A stretch of DNA of 64,000 bases, taken from the NCBI RefSeq assembly GCF_900636965.1, contig NZ_LR134331.1, positions 2,542,001-2,606,000 of the forward strand, read 5' to 3'. The position numbers were made by a program, and so were the translations under genes. Positions 26,874 through 55,607 of this stretch are shown piece by piece (position 1 is the first letter of the stretch; every line of letters starts with the position of its first letter). The stretch is from Lacticaseibacillus rhamnosus (GTDB lineage: Bacteria > Bacillota > Bacilli > Lactobacillales > Lactobacillaceae). A model generated the notes under the pieces. The model had not been told where the DNA came from. It worked only from the letters and a program-made list of their open reading frames with translations, and did not search any database.

Positions 26874-27758
26874 CTATTCATGCCGGGCCAACAAAGCTTC
26901 AAGATCGGCCACACTGTAATGATATTGATTACCGCAGAACTTACAGGTCGTCTCGGCACCGCCGTCTTCATCAATCATTTCCTGCAATTGTTTCCGCGGC
27001 AAAGTGGCCATAATATCGCCAAAATGTTTCTTGGAACAATTACATGCAAACCGCAATGCTTGGGTATCCAGGAAGCGAACGGGCTCTTTGCCTGCAACAC
27101 GTTGGATAATCTGCTCGGGAGTCAGGCCACTTTTTAATAACTCCGATACAAGCGGTAGTGTTTTGACGTTTGCTTCCAGTTCTGACAATTCGGCATCGGT
27201 CGCACCGGGCAACGCCTCTAGCATGAAACCGCCAGCAACCTTAATCGTGTTATCGGCATTGACAAATACAGAGAGTCCGACTGCCGCGGGAATCTGCTCA
27301 GACTTAGCTAAATAATACGTAAAATCTTCTGCTAGCTCACCTGAAACCAGTGGTACCTGTCCCGTAAACGGCTCGCCGATTCCGATATCTTTCGTCACCG
27401 CAAGCATGCCGTGTTTGCCGACTGCTTTTGCCACATCGATTTTACCGACGAGATTGAGGGGAAGATTCACGTGCGGCTCCTGAACATACCCGCGAACGGT
27501 TCCGAGTTGCGTACCATCTGTGACGATCGAGCCAACCGGGCCATCCCCTTTGATACGCACAGTCAGCAAGTCATTCGTGTTTTTTAATCCCGATGCGGCT
27601 AATAACGCTGTGGCAATTAAAGTTCTGCCCAGCGCAGCCGAAGCCGCACTCCAGGTGTCATGGCGTCGTTGTGCTTCGCTTACCGTTTGCGTGGCGTCGA
27701 CTGCGAAAATTCGAAAATGGGCGTTGCGCGACAATGCACTCGCGATGTAGTCACTCAT
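26874..27758 (-). CDS. hslO: Redox-regulated chaperone Hsp33
   Basis: 294 residues. Cytoplasmic holdase activated when oxidation releases its zinc. The C-terminal zinc switch is complete: Cys-x-Cys in FACNCSKKHFGD and Cys-x-x-Cys in TTCKFCGNQYHY, about 30 residues apart. The N-terminal substrate-binding domain includes GPVGSIVTDG and VRGYVQEPHV. It lies 53 bp upstream of dusB on the same strand. The upstream side is a repeat-filled gap that separates it from ftsH. Confidence 0.96.
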   Translation of the reverse strand: MSDYIASALSRNAHFRIFAVDATQTVSEAQRRHDTWSAASAALGRTLIATALLAASGLKNTNDLLTVRIKGDGPVGSIVTDGTQLGTVRGYVQEPHVNLPLNLVGKIDVAKAVGKHGMLAVTKDIGIGEPFTGQVPLVSGELAEDFTYYLAKSEQIPAAVGLSVFVNADNTIKVAGGFMLEALPGATDAELSELEANVKTLPLVSELLKSGLTPEQIIQRVAGKEPVRFLDTQALRFACNCSKKHFGDIMATLPRKQLQEMIDEDGGAETTCKFCGNQYHYSVADLEALLARHE

Positions 27759-27826: not shown

Positions 27827-28037
27827 CCGGCGCAGAAACCCACATGTCAAAACCTTGATGGCGATGGTCAAAGTCCGATCATCACATTTATGGCCACTTA
27901 TGTTCTGGCTTATGCCCATAACGCGCTCACCGGCGCAGGGATCTGCGTGTAAGGACCTCGAACGCGATGGCCAAGACCGGGCCATCACGTCCGAGGCCGC
28001 TTACACTCCGATCCCTAACCGCGCCGGTTCGCGCTTA
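27827..28037. repeat. Two units of a 103-bp palindromic intergenic repeat
   Basis: CCGGCGCAG begins at 27827 and again at 27930, exactly 103 bp apart, and the sequences between align. The second unit is a long imperfect palindrome: inner arms TGTAAGG..CCTCG..CGATGGCC and GGCCATCACG..CGAGG..CTTACA, outer arms CGCGCTCACCGGCGCAGGGATC and its partner GATCCCTAACCGCGCCGG. The first unit is diverged. It belongs to the same family as 54491-54925. It lies between ftsH and hslO, which run the same way. Open frames through it are not genes. Confidence 0.85.
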
Positions 28038-28040
28038 ATA

Positions 28041-28074
28041 AAAAAACACCACCAACATTTGGCAGTGTTTTTAT
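28041..28074 (-). terminator. Terminator of ftsH
   Basis: Minus strand: AAAAACACTGCCAA-ATG-TTGGTGGTGTTTTTTT, immediately after the ftsH stop and directly before the repeat units. Confidence 0.85.
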
Positions 28075-28076
28075 AC

Positions 28077-30227
28077 TTAGGCTTGCGGATTCTGATGATC
28101 GTCATCGGACGGGTTACTGCCAGGTGTTGTGTCGTCTGGCTTTTCCACACTGTCCGTCGTATTGTCATCATGCGCATCTTGGTCTGTTTGATCAGCATTC
28201 GACTGACCCTCAGACTTAGCATGTGCTTCTTCGTCTGCTTGCTTTTCTTTATCCTTGTGTTCCAAGGCTGCTTTGGATTGCTCAAAAGTTGCGGCCTTTT
28301 CACTTGGAAATTCGTCTTGATCGCGTTCTGGCATCTTGCCGTCATTGAACAAGCTGAGAATTTCTTTTTCATTCAAGGTTTCGTACTTAAGCAATGCTTC
28401 GGCAATCAACTTGTGCTGGTCACGATGGGCTTGGATAATTTCGTAGGCCTGTTTGTGGGCCTCGTCAATAATCCGCCGCACTTCATCATCAATTGCCGTT
28501 GCGGTTGTTTCTGAGTATGGCGGTGTTTGGCCATACTGAGCACCCAAGAACGGCTGCCCTTCAGTCTCAAGCTGAACGGTTCCAAGCCGATCAGACATCC
28601 CATACTGTGTGACCATACTGCGTGCAATTTGCGTTGCCTGTTCAAAGTCATTGGAAGCTCCAGTGGATTCAACGCCGAAAATAATTTCTTCAGCTGTGCG
28701 ACCACCAAGTAAACCAACAATTTGTTCGGTCAATTCCTTCTTGGTTAGCAGGAATTGATCGTCTTTTGGCAGCATAATTGCATATCCGCCAGCACGACCA
28801 CGCGGAATGATGGTAACTTTGCGCACCGTTCGTGAATCGCTTAAGACTAAACCGACAATGGCGTGCCCAGCCTCGTGATACGCAACCATCGTCCGTTCTT
28901 TCGGGCTGATGACGCGGTCTTTCTTCGCCGGCCCAGCAATGACACGATCTTCAGCTTCATCCACATCAGCTGCATCAATCTGCTTCTTACTTCGCCGCGC
29001 TGCAACCAACGCCGCTTCATTCAACAGGTTTTCCAAGTCAGCCCCGACAAAACCAGGAGTCTGACGGGCAATTTCCTTCAAATCGACATTTGGTGCCAGC
29101 GGTTTGTTCTTTGCATGAACCTTCAAAATGGCTTCACGGCCTTTAACATCTGGTCGGCCAACCAAAATCTTCCGGTCAAAACGACCTGGACGCAGCAAAG
29201 CCGGATCAAGAACATCGGAACGGTTCGTTGCAGCAATGACAATCACGCCTTCATTACCCGTGAACCCATCCATTTCTACCAGCAACTGGTTTAATGTCTG
29301 TTCACGTTCATCGTGACCGCCGCCCATACCAGCGCCACGCTGACGACCGACCGCATCAATTTCATCAATGAAGATGATTGAAGGAGCTGCTTTTTTAGCC
29401 TGATCAAAAAGATCACGAACACGCGAAGCCCCGACACCAACGAACATCTCGACAAAGTCAGAACCGGAAATCGAGAAGAACGGTACGCCGGCTTCACCAG
29501 CAACCGCCTTGGCTAGTAAGGTTTTACCAGTACCAGGAGGACCCTCAAGCAAAACCCCGGCTGGAATACGGGCACCCAATGCCGAGAATTTACGCGGATC
29601 TTTCAGGAACTCAACCACTTCAACCAGTTCCTGCTTTTCTTCTTCTGCACCGGCAACATCAGAGAAGCGAACTTTATTGGCATTTTTATCGGCTTGTTTA
29701 GCCCGCGACTTGCCAAAACTCATCACGCGACCGGAGCCGCCGCCTTGACCTGCCTGATTCATCATCATATAGAAGAAGATCATCATGATGACAATCGGTA
29801 CAACTGTAATCAACAAGCTAAACCAAACACCGGACTGCGATTCCTCCTGCGTATTGGTCTTGACATTGTTGGCATTGGTCATTTTTTGGATCTGACTCAA
29901 AGTTGCATCATTCGTCGGAATATAAGTCGAGAATTTGGTAACTTTGGTTGACTGATTGCCAAAAAAGCTCAGAGAGTTGTTCGTACCGGAAGACTTTTCA
30001 GCCTTCTTGTATTCACCGCTGACCTTATAAACGCCACCAGATGGCTGGAGCGAATAGCTTTTGACATTGTCCTTTTTTAATTCGGACATAAAGGTGCTTG
30101 TTTCAATTTCTTGGGACGATGTTGTCCCATTATCGCGCATATAATACGCAAAACCGGTGACCAGCAGCACAAAAATGATGATATACGTCAGCGTGCTACT
30201 GAACAGGCCGTTTTGTTTTTTCTTCAT
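28077..30227 (-). CDS. ftsH: ATP-dependent zinc metalloprotease FtsH
   Basis: 716 residues. Membrane-anchored AAA+ protease that degrades membrane and regulatory proteins. Membrane segment 1 lies at about 9-27; an extracytoplasmic domain follows; membrane segment 2 is [20 protein letters not shown] (about 130-150). AAA+ Walker A is GPPGTGKT, Walker [10 protein letters not shown], and a second region of homology [20 protein letters not shown] is present. The zinc site is HEAGH with the distal Asp in the C-terminal half. The C-terminal 70 residues are strongly charged and low in complexity. It follows hpt by 61 bp in the tilS-hpt-ftsH order typical of Bacilli. Confidence 0.97.
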
Positions 30228-53914: not shown

Positions 53915-54442
53915 CTATTTTTGCGCCATGGCCGTCCGAAAATGAACAATCCGATCAAGTGCCAGCATCACTGGGGCAGAAAGAGTCATGACAATGAACT
54001 CAGACAGCATCAGAGATCCATATGTTGGCAAAAACATGGTGGCAAACTTCAAGTGACCGGTCCAAATAATCTCAACTGCAATCAACGCCATCGTCAGGGT
54101 CATGACCGCAATATTCAACGCAAAACGTTGCCATAATTGCTTTAGCTTAGGCGCCAACCAAGCTACCACCGATAACCCAATTAGGCTCTGACCGCCACCA
54201 AAGACAACATCCAGCCAGCCTAATGGCGAAAAAATCGCGTTAAAAATGACGACGCCAGAAACCACGCCGATCAAGTAGCGACGATCAAAGACCACTAAAT
54301 GATTCAAGCTTTCCGAGAGTCGAAACTGAATCGCCCCGCTGGCAAGATTAAGGCTGGCCGGTCCTAACGATAAAACAATATAAATAGCCGCCACCAAAGC
54401 ATTTAAAACCCAACCGCGAATACCCATTTTTGTTTGCTTCAT
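53915..54442 (-). CDS. queT: QueT-family transporter (ECF S component, queuosine precursor)
   Basis: 175 residues, about five to six membrane segments. The N-terminus VLNALVAAIYIVLSLGPASLNLASGAIQFRLSESLNHLVVFDRRYLIGVVSGV is the QueT signature (QFRxSE). The family is thought to import preQ1/queuine with the shared ECF energy module, whose genes are not in this window. No preQ1 riboswitch is recognisable in the short leader, which begins almost at the repeat array 54491-54925. Neighbours do not inform on function. Confidence 0.88.
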   Translation of the reverse strand: MKQTKMGIRGWVLNALVAAIYIVLSLGPASLNLASGAIQFRLSESLNHLVVFDRRYLIGVVSGVVIFNAIFSPLGWLDVVFGGGQSLIGLSVVAWLAPKLKQLWQRFALNIAVMTLTMALIAVEIIWTGHLKFATMFLPTYGSLMLSEFIVMTLSAPVMLALDRIVHFRTAMAQK

Positions 54443-54490
54443 GCCGTTTACCGCTCCCTTACTTAAGCTTGGTTATGTATTACTTATTCT

Positions 54491-54925
54491 CCATAACACG
54501 CTCCCTGGTGCAAGGATCTGCGTGTGAGGACCTTGGTTGCAATGGCCAAAGCCCGGCCATACGTCTGAGGCCGCTTATGTTCTGGTTTACGCCCATAACG
54601 CGTTCGCCAGCCCAGAAGCCTGCGTGTAGGGACCTTGGGCGCAATGGCCAAAGACCGGCCATTGTGCCTGAGGCCACTTATGTTCTGGTTTACGCCCATA
54701 ACGCGTTCGCCAGCCCAGAAGCCTGCGTATAAGGACCTTGGGCGCAATGGCCAAAGCCCGGCCATCACGCCCAAGGCCACTTATGTTCTGGTTTACGCCC
54801 ATAACGCGTTCGCCAGCCCAGAAGCCTGCGTGTAAGGACCTTGGGCGCAATGGCCAAAGCCCGGCCATCACGCCCAAGGCCACTTACACTCCGGCTTCTA
54901 ACCGGGCTGGCTCACGCTCATCAAA
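54491..54925. repeat. Four-unit tandem array of a 103-bp palindromic intergenic repeat
   Basis: CCATAAC marks unit starts at 54491, 54593, 54696 and 54799; units 2-4 are nearly the same, unit 1 is diverged. Within a unit, TGTAAGGACCTTGGGCGCAA..TGGCC pairs with GGCCAT..GCCCAAGGCCACTTA as an interrupted stem of about 25 bp with the loop AAAGCCC. Outer arms GCCAGCCCAGAAGCC and GGCTTCTAACCGGGCTGG pair around the whole array's last unit. The period (103) is not a multiple of three and the open frames in it shift from unit to unit, so it is not coding. Same family as 27827-28037. It lies between mazF and queT, both leftward. Confidence 0.9.
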
Positions 54926-54954
54926 AAAGCGCCTCTTTTTCATCGAGGCGTTTG
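54922..54954 (-). terminator. Terminator of the mazEF operon
   Basis: Minus strand AAACGCCTCGATGAAAAAGAGGCGC followed by TTTTTT, directly after the toxin stop and against the edge of the repeat array. Confidence 0.9.
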
Positions 54955-54955
54955 C

Positions 54956-55339
54956 TTAGTTTTTATTATATGTTTTCGGCTTAGGCAAGCTGACGAGTCC
55001 GACCGATATCGCCAGTGCCCGATCCACCGCTGCCATTTTGGCACTTGAAAGAGCGGTAACGCGTGCCTGTAACCGTTGCTTATCAATTGTACGAATCTGT
55101 TCAAGCAAAATGACTGAATTACGCTCAACCCCGTCTTGCTTGGCGCGCAAACCGACATGGGTGGGCATTTTGGGTTTTTGGATTTTGGAGGTAATGGCAG
55201 CCACGATAACAGTGGGGCTATAATGGTTACCAACATTGTTTTGAATAATAAGTACGGGCCGGTTGCCGCCTTGTTCCGACCCGACAACCGGCGATAAATC
55301 GGCGAAAAATACATCCCCGCGTTTGACTGTTACATCCAT
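54956..55339 (-). CDS. mazF: MazF/PemK-family mRNA interferase toxin
   Basis: 127 residues from ATG 55339, seven bases after AAGGGGG; the frame is open to 55441, which would overlap the antitoxin. Typical MazF/NdoA start [34 protein letters not shown] with the active-site Arg after GGN, then the Thr/Ser in VAAITSK and [14 protein letters not shown]. It cuts specific mRNA sequences and is held inactive by the preceding antitoxin. The alr-antitoxin-toxin order is that of ndoAI-ndoA in Bacillus, so this is an old chromosomal pair rather than a recent arrival. PemK-type pairs are reported in L. rhamnosus. Confidence 0.93.
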
Positions 55340-55358
55340 GCTTTGGCCCCCTTGCTGC

Positions 55359-55607
55359 TTATCGAATATGGGCGTATGCCTCACTTTCGCAGGCGGAGAA
55401 AGCATGGCTGATTTCCGTATTGATTTGTCCCATTGCCACATAGCCAGAAATCAATTGATTGATCTCAGGTGCTTGTGACTGCAAAAACTTCGCCACTGCT
55501 TCAGTAATGACATCCTGAACACCCATATCATTCAACTCGCAATAGGCATCCAAACGCGCTTTGATAGCACTATCAAGCGCGACCGTTACTGACGTTTCCT
55601 TCTTCAT
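55359..55607 (-). CDS. mazE: MazE/PemI-type antitoxin
   Basis: 82 residues from ATG 55607, eight bases after GGAGG; the frame is open to 55679. The N-terminal [37 protein letters not shown] has the ribbon-helix-helix pattern of NdoAI/RelB-like antitoxins, and the acidic tail (about 50-82) should cover the toxin. It precedes the toxin by 19 bp. A palindrome ATCAGCTGAT (55656-55665) lies beside a possible extended -10 (TGCTAAAGT), a candidate site for autoregulation. Confidence 0.88.

Follow-up and report, generated by a model that had tools for sequence, protein, structure and literature searches.

The intergenic region between hslO and ftsH of Lacticaseibacillus rhamnosus raised the question of whether a repeated palindrome found there is an accident of the locus or part of an element with an organization of its own, and whether its hairpin is under selection. 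The region lies in a stretch of 64,000 nucleotides (the window; contig NZ_LR134331.1, positions 2,542,001 to 2,606,000), in which positions are given below unless a genome is named. Both flanking genes, hslO (Hsp33; 26874-27758, NCBIfam NF001033) and ftsH (28077-30227, NCBIfam TIGR01241), are on the minus strand. A preliminary description of this DNA reported that the nonamer CCGGCGCAG recurs at exactly 103 bp, and this was reproduced, with copies at 27827 and 27930 and no third copy in the window. The nonamer alone is weak evidence (two matches occurred anywhere in 8 of 100 shuffles); pairs of it with gaps of 90-100 bp were found 23 times genome-wide compared with 0 for the reversed-pattern control.

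Units of two types were distinguished. The full (F) unit measures about 120 bp and forms a nearly perfect hairpin of about 112 nt, in which 39 pairs are conserved, as are the bulges. In the truncated (T) unit, the 5′ arm and core are retained, but a conserved junction (approximately TTCTGGYTTAYGCC) stands in place of the outer 3′ arm and continues into the CATAACGCG of the next unit. The array between hslO and ftsH (27827-28038, plus strand) has the composition T-F. Its F unit, at 27918-28038, folds as one long hairpin (arms at about 27923-27972 and 27980-28034) with a calculated energy of -73.7 kcal/mol (z -9.8; no shuffle equalled it) and scores 148 bits with model R1. The T unit, at 27827-27917, was assigned by sequence and by comparison of units genome-wide; it begins with CCGG, immediately 3′ of sequence that can be aligned to relatives, and is without its left end and without the outer 3′ arm, in whose place stands junction J (about 27898-27917). 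The junction sequence, TTCTGGCTTATGCCCATAACGCG, was located by exact match at 27903-27925 on the plus strand, where it links the T unit to the following unit; 64 matches were found in the genome and 0 for the reversed control. On the right, the array abuts an A-tract and hairpin (28038-28072, minus strand) presumed, from sequence and right-end statistics, to be the ftsH terminator.

The inner palindrome of the first unit (GATGGTC/GATCATC) had been cited as partly keeping its pairing, and in it a C-G pair is indeed replaced by a compensated T-A pair and a G·T wobble is present. Elsewhere in its core, two pairs are broken and another wobble occurs; thus, the unit is a decayed copy and cannot carry the argument for selection alone. 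The proposed link to a second locus, 54491-54925, was borne out, as both belong to the same repeat family. There the composition is T-T-T-F, with plus-strand T units at 54493-54594, 54595-54697, and 54698-54800 (sequence and genome-wide unit comparison) and a terminal F unit at 54801-54921 (sequence and model R1), beyond which an A-tract and a hairpin resembling a terminator lie at about 54923-54950. In both window arrays the left units are degraded and the last units are perfect or near-perfect, and both arrays adjoin the A-tract of the presumed terminator of a converging gene (ftsH and the gene at 54956-55441, respectively). Open reading frames of about 98-100 amino acids cross the second array on both strands (54430-54883); these are probably spurious and could be mis-annotated as proteins.

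A census of units and arrays was performed in the window's genome (G000, a single 2.99-Mb contig) over 365 kb around hits. At least 268 units in at least 120 arrays were counted, or about 1% of the chromosome; loci were selected by their best full unit, such that arrays of T units only may be missed. A profile search found at least 150 full units at at least 120 places, and 22-mers of the right arm with at most one mismatch numbered 210 compared with 0 in the control. The arrays are located mostly between genes, neighboring full units are all head-to-tail, and in 40 of the 41 arrays that contain both types, T comes before F. These data bear on the suggestion that the 103-bp period and the multi-unit state are features of the element. 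Multi-unit arrays, of two to six units, account for 93 of the 120, so the state is no local accident; however, the other 27 are single units, and it is not obligatory. Similarly, 103 bp is the commonest period at T-type junctions (29 of 66, followed by 101 bp in 11 of 66), and J is conserved among loci (86% identity compared with 77% in the core), but the period is not family-wide, as F-type junctions mostly have periods of 119-127 bp with modes of 122 and 126. Four arrays (near G000:514841, 738856, 797299, and 1816819) form a subfamily whose termini differ (GAAACGCGTTC ... CACGCTCTG) and are uniform inside each array. To the left of G000:340430 (L049), a short hairpin, CCGGTGC...GCACCGG, followed by CTCACGCTCAC, resembles an internal-deletion derivative of the unit.

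Conservation of the hairpin was examined by the scoring of compensatory changes that the preliminary description had proposed, and the outcome agreed with its expectation: among 31 units, double changes were observed in 13 of 39 pairs compared with 5.9 in shuffles, with none of 500 shuffles as high. When the partner was slid by one column in these units, pairing fell from 97.9% to about 35%. Over the 39-pair structure in 163 gapless units, 6128 of 6357 cells (96.4%) were Watson-Crick; a 42-pair list, which counts one pair twice and contains one mostly unpaired pair, gave 95.0% paired compared with 84.4% when shuffled. The helix 20-26/93-99 occurs as 14 different heptamers, all exactly complementary. 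Hairpin pairing is therefore strongly preserved, far beyond chance. The mismatch pattern does not suggest selection on an RNA hairpin: G-T mismatches (83) were no commoner than A-C mismatches (104) over the 39 pairs, or with three extra pairs of which one is counted twice (92 compared with 135). Selection on a wobble-tolerant mRNA hairpin is not supported; instead, pairing seems to matter for the DNA or for the spreading population. The minus strand was considered as carrier of the structure, given the A-C excess over G-T in rightmost units (50 compared with 25; binomial P = 0.005, with related copies that are not independent), and was set aside in view of this non-independence and of the absence of any match with transcription direction.

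The arrays are polar in both placement and integrity. Of 119 right ends, 75 adjoin a Shine-Dalgarno (SD) site or an A-tract, compared with 8 of the 119 left ends. An SD with start codon lies within 30 nt of 31 right ends, and of the others 44 have an A-tract within 16 nt; the corresponding left-end counts are 2 and 6, and random positions give 1.2% and 2.9%. Where the right end has an A-tract, 26 of 45 also have a hairpin and T-tract and resemble the rear of a terminator. The same trend in anchoring was found in two other carrier genomes of the genus, G005 and G023. Non-Watson-Crick pairs rise from right to left, with means of 0.90, 2.06, and 2.92 per unit (2.25 for inner units together compared with 0.90 for rightmost), and a paired test of 41 arrays gave 0.71 compared with 2.24 mismatches, with the rightmost unit more intact in 26 arrays and less so in 4 (P = 5 × 10−5). 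Decay of the inner units looks neutral.

Comparison among genomes revealed a patchy and changing distribution. Within the genus, 25 genomes (G000-G024) were compared: four have many copies and one a single copy, the carriers including L. zeae and L. chiayiensis, and the repeat was absent from all 16 genomes of other genera examined. Copies were also identified in 15 plasmid records (Lacticaseibacillus and Pediococcus), two of them between PTS IIB and IIC genes. A phage origin was rejected, as no match was found in 50,697 phage records. Orthologous sites free of the element were found in sister species for G000:340430, 647277, and 541682, and the hslO-ftsH gap is without it in G005 and G010. 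Seven sites carry the element in both G000 and G005, and there the similarity ranks of the last units run from 16th to 112th of 120; being no more alike than random pairs, these units do not look orthologous. Furthermore, a loop variant is specific to G005 (14 of 31 units, compared with 0 of 201 and 0 of 34 in other genomes). Together, the empty sites, the shared-site units, and the loop variant indicate that the family was still spreading, or being homogenized, after species separation; gene conversion among copies could be an alternative source of the non-orthologous units. Other sequence was noted at some of the compared sites, including: (i) an extra gene resembling a small flavin reductase (putative) in the hslO-ftsH gap of G005 and G010 (L191 and L198); (ii) about 6.8 kb of DNA in the same gap of G023 (L202); and (iii) a near-identical intergenic sequence in place of the element at the G000:647277 orthologues of three other species (L186, L192, and L200), an identity that suggests a recent transfer of the region.

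We give an even chance to the reading that the repeat is a BOX- or MITE-like non-autonomous interspersed hairpin element of the casei group, with arrays that grow by directional, site-anchored accretion. The mobilizing machinery would recognize the hairpin, such that the copies that spread remain palindromic and those already landed drift. The array would be built by repeated arrivals at one boundary, each to the right of the units already there, with the older copies displaced leftwards to decay there; the right-end anchor would then represent a target preference and array growth would represent insertion. We propose more tentatively a specific version, in which each intergenic region has a single fixed boundary, just before an SD or just behind a terminator, where an enzyme repeatedly inserts the unit, always to one side of those already present, and leaves an ordered record with the youngest unit on the right. 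If this version is true, the polarity would be comparable to that of CRISPR arrays, here with a mobile element building the array. Mismatches are more numerous in single units (1.68) than in the last unit of an array (0.72), a difference that simple accretion alone does not predict. Alignments across empty sites have no clean target-site duplication that can be read, and left ends carry older remnants. Two mobilizer families, Y1_Tnp and RVT_1, were searched. The Y1 transposase (PF01797) had 0 matches in G000, G005, and G023 and one in G010, and reverse transcriptase was absent from G000, G005, and G023; RAYT mobilization and retro-mobilization like that of group IIC introns were rejected on the absence of these respective families from the three carriers. 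Group IIC introns also target terminators.

The repeat could instead be an intergenic regulator selected by the host, with transcribed hairpins acting in mRNA (e.g., as RNase III sites or as stability barriers between genes) and only the unit beside the ribosome-binding site or terminator being of consequence and kept intact. Such a role would fit the great stability of the structure, the integrity of the rightmost unit, and the right ends at SD sites, which on plasmids occur also inside operons (e.g., a mannose-type PTS operon). We consider it unlikely, as the rightmost units do not favor G-T (25 compared with 50 for A-C, against 58 and 54 in inner units), with G-T not commoner than A-C for either direction of transcription of the neighboring gene. 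Their integrity also has no clear dependence on context (1.00 mismatches at an SD, 1.22 at an A-tract, and 0.44 elsewhere). At shared sites the units give the impression of replacement, not of conservation, and sister species lack the element at several sites. An even less probable account, to which we give little weight, is upkeep of the palindrome by replication, in which template switching between the arms repairs mismatches and neither selection nor a transposase is needed. The double Watson-Crick changes, the scarcity of intermediates, and the lack of an excess of wobbles are consistent with a process at the DNA level. However, nearly all units retain mismatched bulges (at about 27-30/89-92, 48-49/69-70, and 100-103), which arm-to-arm copying should erase and which argue against simple repair of this kind, and inner units decay despite having the same arms. 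Least probable is local tandem amplification of an old intergenic sequence by unequal crossing-over with the terminal unit as a fixed edge: the spacers of one array resemble each other, and T units are more alike within arrays (86%) than between (79%), such that local duplication probably accounts for the growth of some T arrays, yet F units are nearly as different within arrays as between (85.5% compared with 83.7% identity), such that most arrays are not fresh local duplications, and 120 dispersed loci with empty sites require dispersal.

The hairpin repeat was compared with known elements. Closest in organization is BOX of Streptococcus pneumoniae, with the structure boxA-boxB(n)-boxC and a suggested role in mRNA processing (PMC3049150); BOX was compared here by description rather than by sequence. 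Both are small, interspersed, intergenic hairpin repeats of a small Firmicute clade with about 120-125 loci per genome, and both have a modular build in which the number of inner modules ahead of a fixed end varies. What sets the casei-group repeat apart is that its repeated module includes the 5′ arm together with the core, that there is repetition of full units too, that an SD or terminator anchors the right end, that Rfam has no family for it, and that its host clade is another. In place of the boxA/boxC outer stem around boxB modules, each F unit closes on itself, and the T unit repeats the 5′ arm without the outer 3′ arm. REP/REPIN sequences with their RAYT, in which some clusters formed by insertion beside existing copies (PMC3116915), are likewise high-copy extragenic hairpins of conserved structure, and insertion of this kind is proposed here too; however, REPs are of 20-40 bp, usually in inverted pairs, compared with 120-bp units placed head-to-tail here, and the cognate RAYT/TnpA-REP (Y1_Tnp) was absent in three of the four copy-rich genomes tested. 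With Correia elements (NEMIS) of Neisseria, for which a role in mRNA processing was reported (PMC2649163), and with other MITEs, the repeat shares its short, non-coding, non-autonomous nature, inverted complementary ends that pair, many copies, and position beside genes. A transcribed copy could, as in NEMIS/Correia, be an RNase III substrate, and a role in mRNA processing is possible as a side effect. The differences are the polar arrays, the lack of a clearly readable target duplication, and the lack of a parent IS in searches with Y1_Tnp and RVT_1. A known structured RNA was rejected as a candidate: the repeat loci matched no Rfam covariance model at the gathering score, and the relaxed threshold gave nothing relevant, its matches being mostly to unrelated RNAs, among them eukaryotic miRNA precursors.

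The family was thus not described in Rfam, nor was a description found in the literature searched, a search that left most subscription journals outside. Its units are often placed precisely at translation starts or transcription ends, beside ftsH and within sugar-uptake operons, where the repeat may shape the expression of its neighbors and can mislead annotation. With the polarity of the arrays and their turnover among genomes, the mobilization of small hairpins in Firmicutes, an open matter for BOX-like elements, becomes testable by the comparison of strains of widely used laboratory lactobacilli.
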